The notes under the pieces: generated by a model
What the model was told of the DNA's origin: nothing
Database searches by the model: none
Seen by the model: the letters and a program-made list of their open reading frames with translations, nothing else
Program-made: the position numbers and the translations under genes
Part shown: positions 2,416 to 5,801 of the stretch, one piece after another
How positions within the stretch are numbered: the stretch's first letter is position 1
Layout of the letters: every line of letters begins with the position of its first letter
Assembly (NCBI GenBank): GCA_946186205.1
Contig: CAMHMH010000006.1
Span: 62,001 to 126,000 of the forward strand
DNA from: an uncultured Fretibacterium sp.
GTDB taxonomy: Bacteria; Synergistota; Synergistia; Synergistales; Aminobacteriaceae
Reading direction: 5' to 3'
DNA: 64,000 bases

Positions 2416-4830
2416 ATGCAAATGGGGGTAATTATCATACCTGTTAAAAAAGAATCCTCACCAAAAAAAGAGGATACTAAAAAGAAAGCATTAGCCAAAA
2501 AAATAAAGGCCGTCTTAGAATCAGAGTCGCAAGAATCAAAAACAGCCAGCAGTTTGTCAGAGTCAGAAACGAAAGCCCCCCCGCGAATCAAGAAGGCTGT
2601 AGCGTCATCGTCATCAAAAACTTCAAAGGCCGGCACAAAATCATCATCATCAAAATCAACCTCATCAAAGACTTCAAAGACTTCAGCACGCAAATCACCG
2701 TCAAAATCTTCAGCACTCAAAACTTCATCAAGCAACAAGACTCTAATCATCGTTGAGTCTCCGTCAAAAGCCGCGACGCTCTCGAACATGCTCGGCAAAG
2801 GCTACGTAGTGAAATCGAGCAAAGGACACATGAAGGACTTGCCCAAGAGTCGAATGGCCATTGACATTGAGCACGGCTTCACGCCCGAATATATTCTTGT
2901 GAAGGGAAAAGCCGCCCTCAAGAATGAGCTTCTGCAGCTAGCATCGACCGCAAAAAATGTATTGCTTGCCTCAGACCCTGACAGAGAGGGAGAAGCTATA
3001 GCGTGGCACTTGGCGGACATACTCGGAGTGAATCTGGCTGAGAAATGCCGCGTTAGATTCTACGAGATCACAGAGAACGCCGTGAAACTTGCGGTGCAGA
3101 ACCCGGACTATATCGACACGAATAAAGTTGACGCACAGCAGGCGCGGAGGATTCTTGACCGTCTTGTGGGCTATACGCTGAGTCCATTGCTCTGGAAGAA
3201 GATTCGTTACGGGTTATCGGCGGGGCGTGTTCAGTCCGTAGCATTAAATCTTATCTGCGAACGTGAGCGCGAAATTCTAGCGTTTGTCCCTGATCCATAT
3301 TTTGTGATTACGGCACTCGCTGAAAACGGCGGGAATCATTACGAGCTTAAACCGTATAAACTTGACGGAAAATCTTTGCTGAAAGGTTCACTGCCTCTTT
3401 TGATTGACACTGAAGAGAAAGCGCAGGAGATAATAGCGGAGATAAAAGCAAATAAGATTGTTGTTACTGACTTCAAATCGAAGAACAGCCCTCACGCAGC
3501 CCCGGCACCATTCAGGACAAGCACGTTACAGCAGGAAGCATCGAGGCGGCTCAGCTTTGTCCCGGCTCACACGATGAGAATCGCTCAGGCACTTTACGAG
3601 GGACTGAACATTCCCGGACGCGGCCATATAGGACTCATAACGTACATGCGAACGGACAGCCTGAGAATTTCTGACGAGGCTATAGCGTCATGCCGTGAAT
3701 ATATTTTCGCTCACTACAAGAAAGATTATCTCCCTAAGAACCCGAATGTTTACGGAGCGTCGAGCAAGACAAAAATTCAGGACGCACACGAGGCAATAAG
3801 ACCGACTGACATAATACTAACGCCCGAAGCACTCGCAGGGACTCTCACGCCTGAGCAGCTCAAACTTTACTCGTTAATATGGCGGCGATTCACAGCGAGT
3901 CAGATGACCCCGGCAATCACAGCAAAGTCGACTCTGAAAGCTGAAGCCGGGCGCGTAACATTAAAGCAGGAAGGCGAGACATTAATTTTTGACGGCTGGA
4001 GTCTTTTGTGGCCATTAGATCTCAAAGGGAGCGAGCTTGAGAAAATTTCAGCGGGAGAAGTTCTGACTCTCAATGACATTCAGAGCGAGAAGAAGTACAC
4101 GAAGCCGCCCGCAAGATATTCAGAGGCAGGACTAATCAAGACGCTTGAGGAAAACGGAGTCGGCCGTCCTTCAACGTATGCAACGATAGCCGGGACGTTA
4201 GAGTCTCGCGGGTATATTGAGAAGAACGAGGAGAAGAGATTTTATCCGACGGCATTGGGAATGACTGTTGACGAATTTCTAGCGCAGTACTTCAACCGCA
4301 AAGACTTGTCATCAATCGTTGACGCAGGATTCACGGCGCAAATGGAGAAGGAGCTTGACGAGGTGGAAGAAGCCTCGCGCAAATGGCTTGATGTAGTGAG
4401 TCAGTTCTGGAATGAATTTTCAGCGACTCTCAACGAGGCAGAAGACGCGCCGAAAGTCCCATTGCCTGAACCTGAACCGATCGGTGAATTATGCCCTGAC
4501 TGCGGCCATGACCTTGTGAAAAAGCGGGGGCGTTTCGGTGAGTTCATTGCTTGCTCGAATTATCCTGCGTGCAAATATACCCGTCCCATTCTCAGCAAGA
4601 TAGGCGTAACGTGTCCCAAGTGCGGAGAAGGCGAGATCGTGAAGCGCAAGAGCAAAAAGGGAAGGACATTTTACGGCTGCTCGCGTTATCCTGAATGCGA
4701 TTATGTTGCGTGGAATCGTCCTGCGGGTGAAAAGTGCCCGGAGTGCGGCGAGGATTTGTACGTGAAAGGGTCAACGATATTCTGCGCCAAGTGCAAATAC
4801 AAAGCAGAGGCTGAGTCGTCAGCTGAGTAA
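2416..4830 (+). CDS. topA: DNA topoisomerase I with a long basic N-terminal extension
   Basis: Type IA topoisomerase that relaxes negative supercoils. The Toprim domain starts near residue 108 (TLIIVESPSKAATL), with the DPDREGEAIAWHL acidic motif after it. The active-site tyrosine is residue 410 in GLITYMRTDS. The C-terminus carries three zinc ribbons (CPDCG, CPKCG and CPECG pairs from about residue 693 on). The first 107 residues are an unusual Lys/Ser-rich low-complexity tail absent from standard enzymes; such tails can bind DNA or RNA (inference). The ATG at 2416 has no clear ribosome-binding site. A G-run at 2424-2428 followed by ATT/ATC codons leaves the true start uncertain by a few codons. 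A terminator follows the stop closely. Confidence 0.97.
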   Translation: MQMGVIIIPVKKESSPKKEDTKKKALAKKIKAVLESESQESKTASSLSESETKAPPRIKKAVASSSSKTSKAGTKSSSSKSTSSKTSKTSARKSPSKSSALKTSSSNKTLIIVESPSKAATLSNMLGKGYVVKSSKGHMKDLPKSRMAIDIEHGFTPEYILVKGKAALKNELLQLASTAKNVLLASDPDREGEAIAWHLADILGVNLAEKCRVRFYEITENAVKLAVQNPDYIDTNKVDAQQARRILDRLVGYTLSPLLWKKIRYGLSAGRVQSVALNLICEREREILAFVPDPYFVITALAENGGNHYELKPYKLDGKSLLKGSLPLLIDTEEKAQEIIAEIKANKIVVTDFKSKNSPHAAPAPFRTSTLQQEASRRLSFVPAHTMRIAQALYEGLNIPGRGHIGLITYMRTDSLRISDEAIASCREYIFAHYKKDYLPKNPNVYGASSKTKIQDAHEAIRPTDIILTPEALAGTLTPEQLKLYSLIWRRFTASQMTPAITAKSTLKAEAGRVTLKQEGETLIFDGWSLLWPLDLKGSELEKISAGEVLTLNDIQSEKKYTKPPARYSEAGLIKTLEENGVGRPSTYATIAGTLESRGYIEKNEEKRFYPTALGMTVDEFLAQYFNRKDLSSIVDAGFTAQMEKELDEVEEASRKWLDVVSQFWNEFSATLNEAEDAPKVPLPEPEPIGELCPDCGHDLVKKRGRFGEFIACSNYPACKYTRPILSKIGVTCPKCGEGEIVKRKSKKGRTFYGCSRYPECDYVAWNRPAGEKCPECGEDLYVKGSTIFCAKCKYKAEAESSAE

Positions 4831-4836
4831 CAAAAT

Positions 4837-4866
4837 CCCCTCCCGTAAAAATTCTCAGGAGGGGTA
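4837..4866 (+). terminator. Rho-independent terminator after topA
   Basis: CCCCTCC (4837-4843) pairs with GGAGGGG (4858-4864) around a 14-base loop and is followed by an A/T-rich tail. It belongs to a family of near-identical terminators also at 5458, 8229 and 25052. Confidence 0.8.
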
Positions 4867-4946
4867 AAAATTTATTTTCCTTCACAAAGTTACTGATAAT
4901 AAATGAAATCATTCAGTCAATACTTGTTGCATAAATTACGTACTAC

Positions 4947-4976
4947 TTGACAAAGCCCCCCCCCCCCCCTTATAAG
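4947..4976 (+). promoter_or_regulatory. Sigma70-like promoter with a homopolymeric spacer
   Basis: A perfect TTGACA (-35) at 4947-4952 is followed after 18 bases by TATAAG (-10) at 4971-4976. Of the 18 spacer bases, 14 are an unbroken C run. Gain or loss of one or two C residues would change the -35/-10 distance, which is a known way to switch promoters on and off in phase-variable genes. The promoter faces the small membrane-protein gene starting at 5019. Confidence 0.7.
4956..4969 (+). repeat. C14 homopolymer tract
   Basis: Fourteen consecutive C residues lie inside the spacer of the promoter above. No comparable homopolymer was noticed elsewhere in the window. Runs of this length slip readily during replication; this sits exactly where length would affect transcription. 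Confidence 0.95.
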
Positions 4977-5018
4977 TTATCATTACAGCTAATTTTATCG
5001 TCAAGGGGGATTTATCGC

Positions 5019-5441
5019 ATGGATGATGATGCCAAATTAGGTTGCGGATGTGTTATTGTCGTTTTGGCCATGCTTGGTATTATTGGTGCTGTTGGCGGAT
5101 TATTCACGGGTGATTTTAAGGTTATGTCGGTCGGAATCGCTTTTTTGTTCCCATATCTTCTTTCAGTGTTAGGGAAGCGTCAAGAAGAAAAAGAAGAGAA
5201 AGAAAAACGCGAGCGCAACGAAAAACTTGCACAAGCTGCCCTCAATGGTGATACTGAAGCGCAATATGAACTCGGACGCAATCTCGTCAACAGAGGCTAC
5301 GAATCCGAGGGAGTGAGCTACCTTCAGAAAGCCGCCGACAAAGGACACGAAGAAGCCCGCAGATTCCTTGAGGATTACCGCGCAAAAATACAGCTTGAAG
5401 AAAAAACAAGGCGCGTTGACGACCTCGCAGGCAAACTGTAA
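5019..5441 (+). CDS. Small membrane protein with a Sel1-like repeat
   Basis: 140 residues from the ATG at 5019, which follows AAGGGGGA (5003-5010) at good distance. An upstream in-frame extension would read through the C14 tract as prolines and is rejected. Residues about 8-33 and 38-52 are hydrophobic and probably form a membrane hairpin. A highly charged E/K/R helix (about 53-70) follows. The C-terminal half (AQYELGRNLVNRGYESEGVSYL...GHEEARRFL) has the spacing of Sel1/TPR-type repeats that bind other proteins. No specific function is recognised. A bidirectional terminator follows. The promoter makes this a candidate phase-variable gene. Confidence 0.75.
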   Translation: MDDDAKLGCGCVIVVLAMLGIIGAVGGLFTGDFKVMSVGIAFLFPYLLSVLGKRQEEKEEKEKRERNEKLAQAALNGDTEAQYELGRNLVNRGYESEGVSYLQKAADKGHEEARRFLEDYRAKIQLEEKTRRVDDLAGKL

Positions 5442-5457
5442 GAGCGCAAAAAAAATT

Positions 5458-5484
5458 CCCCTCCCGATTCTGTGTCAGGAGGGG
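5458..5484. terminator. Bidirectional terminator between convergent genes
   Basis: CCCCTCC (5458-5464) pairs with GGAGGGG (5478-5484). An A-run on the left serves the minus-strand rsfS transcript and a T-rich stretch on the right serves the plus-strand transcript. Confidence 0.8.
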
Positions 5485-5489
5485 CAAAA

Positions 5490-5801
5490 TTATTCTTCCC
5501 AGAGTCTTTCGAGCCTGTAGAAATCTCTTCCCTTGTGGCTGAAAACGTGAACAACTACGTCCCCGCCGTCAAGCAATCGCCAGTTCAAACTATGCTCGCC
5601 CTCAATCCGGCACTTTCTCCCGGAGCGAGTCAGAATCTCCTCGGCCGTCTCAGAAAGAGTCCTCATGTGAGTCTCTGAGTTTCCCGTAACAAGAACAAAC
5701 GCATCTGCAAGCCCGCCTTTGTCCTTTAGGTCTAACGTGATTATGTTTTCTCCGCTCTTTGCGTCTAATGCTGTCGTGATTTCCTGAAGTATTCCGTTCA
5801 T
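5490..5801 (-). CDS. rsfS: Ribosome silencing factor RsfS
   Basis: 103 residues, the usual length for RsfS (Iojap). Members bind ribosomal protein uL14 and block subunit joining during starvation. Family features visible are the LDLKDKGGLADAFVLVTGNSETHMRTL block and the C-terminal DVVVHVFSHKGRDFYRLERLW. It starts at the base after the upstream kdgK stop region (one base between), so it is probably cotranscribed with the sugar-acid genes. That is an unusual partner, because rsfS normally sits with nadD. Confidence 0.95.
   Translation of the reverse strand: MNGILQEITTALDAKSGENIITLDLKDKGGLADAFVLVTGNSETHMRTLSETAEEILTRSGRKCRIEGEHSLNWRLLDGGDVVVHVFSHKGRDFYRLERLWEE

Follow-up and report, generated by a model that had tools for sequence, protein, structure and literature searches.

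The C14 tract in front of a small gene in the window (the whole stretch of 64,000 nucleotides that was analysed) is probably the spacer of a phase-variable promoter, one member of a genus-wide poly-C/poly-G contingency set with two output modes. For the class, the switch reading has good support; at the window locus itself it is likely, though unproven. In the proposed mechanism, DNA polymerase slippage on the poly-C spacer would alter the distance between the -35 and -10 hexamers, and the altered distance would change the transcription of a single-gene, Sel1-like unit. Across the set, one mode would be frameshift switching within genes, mostly those for surface glycans, other surface features and restriction, and the other would be a change of spacer length in promoters. 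The features of the locus, in window positions, are as follows.

2416-4830, plus strand: topA (DNA topoisomerase I), upstream neighbour; open reading frame, family recognised from sequence
4837-4864, no strand assigned: inverted repeat CCCCTCCCG...GGAGGGG in the gap between topA and the promoter, read from sequence; likely the topA terminator
4947-4952, plus strand: -35 hexamer TTGACA, read from sequence
4953-4955: AAG between the -35 hexamer and the tract, read from sequence
4956-4969, plus strand: C14 tract, predicted slippage-prone promoter spacer, from sequence and run-length statistics
4970: T between C14 and TATAAG, read from sequence
4971-4976, plus strand: -10 candidate TATAAG, spacer 18, read from sequence
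4973-4988, plus strand: weak palindrome copy (TAAGTTATCATTACAG), PWM score 7.0 against a 99% background quantile of 7.3
4978-4983, plus strand: alternative -10 candidate TATCAT, spacer 25, from sequence and motif alignment
5003-5009, plus strand: Shine-Dalgarno-like AAGGGGG, read from sequence
5019-5441, plus strand: gene for a 140-aa protein, ATG at 5019; open reading frame
5458-5484, no strand assigned: terminator stem in the gap between the gene and rsfS, a near copy of the 4837-4864 repeat
5490-5801, minus strand: rsfS-like gene (ribosomal silencing factor), downstream neighbour; open reading frame, family recognised from sequence

The promoter anatomy can be read directly from the window. 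The homopolymer lies between the -35 and -10 hexamers of the gene's own promoter (4947-4976), and the spacer from TTGACA to TATAAG amounts to 3+14+1 = 18 bp. The initial annotation, which had placed the two hexamers 18 bases apart with 14 Cs between them, was exact on this point. In the window genome the TTGACA is perfect, the tract is pure and long, and TATAAG matches the consensus at five of six positions. A simple sigma-70 scan did not list the window promoter because TATAAG lacks the final T. In the motif alignment, the alternative TATCAT (4978-4983) sits where the genus motif has TAWAAT.

The 140-aa gene forms a single-gene unit, with topA on one side, the opposite-strand rsfS-like gene on the other, and inverted-repeat terminators flanking it. 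Its product is a small, probably membrane-anchored, Sel1-like protein. The AlphaFold2 model, built from two sequences (mean pLDDT 77), showed a helical hairpin at the N terminus, a long helix and a helical hairpin of the repeat type; the first hairpin is hydrophobic and the last is Sel1/TPR-like. The modelled repeat hairpin superposed on the solved Sel1 protein 3rjv at 1.1 Å over 47 columns. Foldseek with the modelled protein gave no significant E-value, the 3rjv superposition included. The earlier description of a small Sel1-like membrane protein holds, though the Pfam Sel1 match was below the cut-off (E=0.14).

The window C14 tract is not a chance run. The 2.75-Mb genome contains 14 C-runs of at least 12 (lengths 12-19) against 0.03 expected, a number computed from the C-to-C transition rate, P(C|C)=0.205. 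In the window, the run of 14 is the sole C-run of at least 8, and the next longest has 7. Among the 24 C-runs of at least 8 in the genome, six begin 2-3 nt after TTGACA. Of 116 tracts in five genus genomes, 11 have TTGACA on their upstream side at a distance of no more than 12 nt, about 40-fold above the 0.26 expected. Individual genomes of the genus carry from 0 (G020) to 55 (G027) C-runs of at least 10. Elsewhere in the family and order, genera mostly have 0-8, a few exceptions being G088 (25), G108 (18) and G112 (10). All of these are draft assemblies, in which homopolymer lengths can be wrong; one contig of the window genome ends in a C18 tract (G000:C5:187361-187378), and draft tract lengths and counts are therefore lower bounds.

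Other poly-C repeats were seen outside the genus. G088, which represents another genus in the family, contains the dispersed repeat GACCGAATTGGTCTTTTTCG-Cn-GCACTATGACAG..GTCGAGAG with C-tracts of 13-18 (L228, L229, L233, L235, L236), which belongs to a different repeat family. Locus L232 contains a C55 run. In G057, from another family of the order, the repeat CATGCAGGAAAGGCAGAACGTTCCCATCACCA is followed by C9 and C15, about 450 bp apart (L193).

An unbiased search of 43 genus genomes with the pattern TTGACN{1,6}C6N{1,22}TATAAT yielded 32 sites, and the reversed control pattern yielded one. The promoter-class tracts recur before the same gene families in different species. These families include pilin-like proteins with an N-methylation motif (four species), the HKIIHTA family (at least six), glycine-rich membrane-like proteins, the MDAQVGNEIK family, IIGP/dynamin-like GTPases and Sel1-like proteins. 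The type IV pilin-like N-terminal methylation motif was seen in genes behind poly-C at L177, L186, L134 and L089, in four species. GTPase genes of the IIGP/dynamin-like type stand behind poly-C tracts in two species (L107, L082). One tract-linked GTPase resembles the PADLOC LeoA/LeoBC models, and the L107 and L082 GTPases are possible phase-variable defence genes. Promoter-type tracts precede Sel1-like genes in the window genome (G000), G032 (L091/L226) and G012 (L223); in the latter two species the tracts have TATAAT at 20 bp. The gene type had been described as one not known to be phase-variable. Its occurrence behind the same promoter type in two more species makes it a recurring poly-C promoter target here.

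Tract length differs among related genomes, at many loci between species. Orthologous tracts compared as C13/C11, C19/C9, C18/C12, C12/C9 and C12/CCCCTCTGCCC, and in three species the promoter TTGACAAAG-Cn-TATAAT has C10, C11 and C11. The genus very likely does have a class of switches based on homopolymer slippage in promoter spacers, and we infer that such slippage proceeds in living populations.

Of the 31 distinct sites in the class, 18 have a spacer of 20 bp and 26 have one of 19-21 bp, compared with 16.8 at 19-21 in permutations. Ordinary TTGACA/TATAAT pairs in the window genome peak at 16-18, a difference with a Mann-Whitney p = 3e-6; spacing p-values are guides only, because related gene families are not fully independent. 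Elsewhere in the phylum, other genera have TTGAC-C7-TATAAT sites with spacers mostly of 16-17. Tract and flank lengths trade off against each other (Spearman -0.76, two sites with spacers under 15 dropped), and sites with interrupted tracts mostly keep a spacer of 20 (C6TC3, C6AC3). Substitutions at the tract edges could give part of this trade-off, the total still being conserved. Ascertainment was rejected as the source of the 20-bp peak, since the search pattern admitted spacers of 7-33 bp.

The simplest reading of these sequences is that promoters with about ten C in the spacer may function at a distance of about 20 bp. G-tracts have a shorter helix rise, which could be the physical reason for the 20-bp spacing. 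Alternatively, the assemblies might show OFF states, with ON near 17. The initial annotation had proposed a slippage switch ranging over 16-20 bp around 18. The switch class is supported, but the range as given is not: the class clusters at 20, and ordinary promoters are at 16-18. Relative to the normal optimum of about 16-18 bp, the window promoter lies at 18 with TATAAG. With a spacing of 18 (TATAAG) or 25 (TATCAT) against the class mode of 20, the window locus is off the mode, and its ON length is therefore not readable from sequence. Transcription would start from this promoter, and certain tract lengths would turn it ON.

About one-third of the genus tracts lie within genes, as poly-G. 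With at least 80 open codons required on both sides on the G strand, 18 were in frame and 36 out of frame. This 1:2 split is as expected for freely slipping tracts, that is, for frameshift contingency loci. From their sequences, we take the affected genes to encode family-2 glycosyltransferases and fucosyltransferase-like, LicD-like, polysaccharide pyruvyl transferase-like and flippase-like proteins. Dozens of unstable runs in the genus probably serve as random on-off switches for surface genes.

Five genic tracts are on the C strand. Three of them, C9-C19 in length, lie in genes that resemble restriction-modification specificity subunits (L009 in G000, C3:83594-83612; L055 in G010; L173 in G005), and these are candidates for phase-variable specificity and possibly form a phasevarion. 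Poly-C was also observed 108-142 nt upstream of LicD-like (L170, L054) and alanine racemase-like (L045, L126) genes, which have long leaders.

A 16-bp palindrome, TAnGTAwwwwTACnnA, lies 0-6 nt downstream of the C-tracts, both of those within genes and of those in promoters. With 118 training tracts, expectation maximisation gave the motif Ta.GtA.aaTTAC..A, a few nucleotides downstream of the C-run. The correlation of its matrix with its own reverse complement was 0.82, a value reached by none of 2000 shuffles. Among 39 held-out tracts from four other genomes, 28% scored above the 99% background (AUC 0.71, p = 4e-6), and a fixed test demanding 8 of 10 matches to GTATAATTAC was passed by 9 of the 39 versus 0.9%. 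The palindrome keeps to a constant side of the tract in genes and promoters, independent of gene strand, reading frame or promoter presence. By eye, it also stands beside the C-strand gene tracts L009 and L173. In the promoter class, it contains the -10.

Several alternatives for the tracts and this motif were considered and rejected. Protein-level selection as the source of the motif is at odds with its distribution over the three gene frames (19/13/14). General word abundance fails, as TTACGTA, AATTACG and GTAAATTAC occur in the window about as often as expected. The motif is not a feature of any C-tract either, since among 21 C-tracts of other genera in the family none scored above the 99% background for the palindrome. 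An inserted mobile element bearing tract and motif was set aside because alignments of orthologous loci across the tract reveal substitutions and changes of length where an element would have left empty sites around a fixed insert; in an alcohol-dehydrogenase-like gene (L119), the tract sits at what we take to be its native glycine motif with little insertion, which also counts against such an element. Viral carriage was likewise dismissed. In IMG/VR, the two locus-specific strings had no match, and the general pattern matched a single contig that gave no indication of kinship. Tentatively, the C-tract and palindrome may constitute a composite hypermutable element, with a dedicated DNA-binding protein that would recognise the palindrome and either govern slippage, making mutability locus-specific, or couple all tracts, genic and promoter ones, as one regulated set. 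A trans-acting factor for the palindrome is possible, and a purely mutational origin is conceivable.

Among the 43 genus genomes, the 140-aa gene is present in only two, and its sole full-length ortholog (89% protein identity) is in G010, an uncultured Fretibacterium sp. MAG (Synergistota) and the closest relative with the gene (L015). At the same place this sister species has TTG-C7TC7-TTATAAG, with TTGCCC where the window genome has TTGACA; the tract is interrupted, TTGACA is lost and the gene is intact. The tract differs between the two genomes, C14 versus C7TC7, and with C7TC7 and no TTGACA in the sister the switch is not conserved at that locus. The promoter tract in G010 is probably locked.

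Between the window genome and G010, the synonymous distance was 0.76 for topA and 0.49 for rsfS, and 0.07 for the 140-aa gene. Because this value is far below that of the flanks, a recent exchange between species is probable for the gene and its promoter. The cassette at 4837-5484 (L015 in G010), with a synonymous distance about ten-fold below its flanks, has the terminator-like repeat duplicated. In G065 (L144), topA is joined directly to the rsfS-side terminator and the 140-aa gene is absent. The N-terminal half of the gene showed dN 0.12 and dS 0.03, both from small counts.

These observations at the sister locus bear on whether the window tract might mutate with no functional switch here, as a decaying or phase-locked class member with a fixed or weak promoter. 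The C7TC7 tract and TTGCCC beside an intact gene would fit this account, as would the sporadic, accessory nature of the gene and the weakness of the window palindrome copy. It fits poorly with the pure, long tract, the perfect TTGACA and the 5/6 TATAAG of the window, and with the similar genes of two other species, whose tracts have TATAAT at 20 bp. We consider it quite unlikely. An artefact of assembly or sequencing (poly-G error) is largely refuted and highly improbable. Some tracts do lie at contig ends, as with the C18 mentioned above, and the assemblies are drafts. However, the majority of tracts are internal to long contigs and occupy matching orthologous positions in independent genomes; their flanks are conserved and carry a genus-specific motif, and some have interruptions of a kind that no artefact would introduce.

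The tract might instead set the distance from an operator or activator to the core promoter, as in Neisseria nadA or Bordetella fim, with the palindrome as the operator. NadR/nadA is a known case in which a repeat determines operator spacing (PMC2791445). At 20 bp, the class spacing is 2-4 bp above the ordinary 16-18 bp, which is consistent with this account, and so is the 16-bp palindrome beside the tracts, which in promoter-class sites overlaps the -10. The flanks show a clear palindrome on one side and only a weak TA-rich signal on the other. The same motif stands beside tracts within genes, where there is no promoter to regulate, and an operator-spacing role seems unlikely to us. A phase-variable promoter spacer remains the reading that we favour.

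MerR-type promoters have 19-20 bp spacers, and the class resembles them in combining an over-long spacer with good -35 and -10 hexamers. It differs in that the centre of the spacer is a homopolymer, not an operator; the palindrome lies 0-6 nt downstream of the poly-C, over the -10. Campylobacter and Helicobacter carry poly-G contingency loci, with many tracts of at least 9 in surface glycan genes, as in this genus, where two-thirds of the genic tracts are out of frame. This genus, in contrast, belongs to the Synergistota, and its tracts come with a DNA motif whatever the reading frame. The Campylobacter loci have been described (PMC8437040). In Neisseria, homopolymer spacers controlling transcription are established for porA, opc and fetA (PMC2791445), where, as here, a long G or C homopolymer forms the spacer of a sigma-70-like promoter and its length is expected to set transcription. 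The genus differs in phylum, in having many genes rather than few, in the 20-bp class spacing and in the flanking palindrome. Its targets are small hydrophobic, Sel1-like, GTPase and pilin genes, whereas porA, opc and fetA encode outer-membrane porins and receptors. The nadA/NadR system, in which repeats space operators, is similar in its repeat tract flanked by a regulator-like palindrome (PMC2791445). However, the nadA repeat is far upstream of the promoter, while the genus has a mononucleotide run in the core promoter and the motif also within genes.

Runs inside promoters are known from meningitis bacteria; what sets this little-studied genus apart is their use throughout the genome, the unusual 20-bp spacing of the promoter class and the shared palindrome. 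A literature search of incomplete coverage found no paper on phase variation in the genus or on a homopolymer switch in Synergistota. If the favoured reading is right, an uncultured gut lineage would possess a large repertoire of homopolymer switches, with a standardised promoter architecture serving many gene families. The 20-bp preference asks whether poly(dG).poly(dC) spacers, which are A-like with a shorter helix rise, shift the optimum of RNA polymerase, and the shared palindrome raises the question of whether a trans-acting factor can be dedicated to hypermutable tracts.
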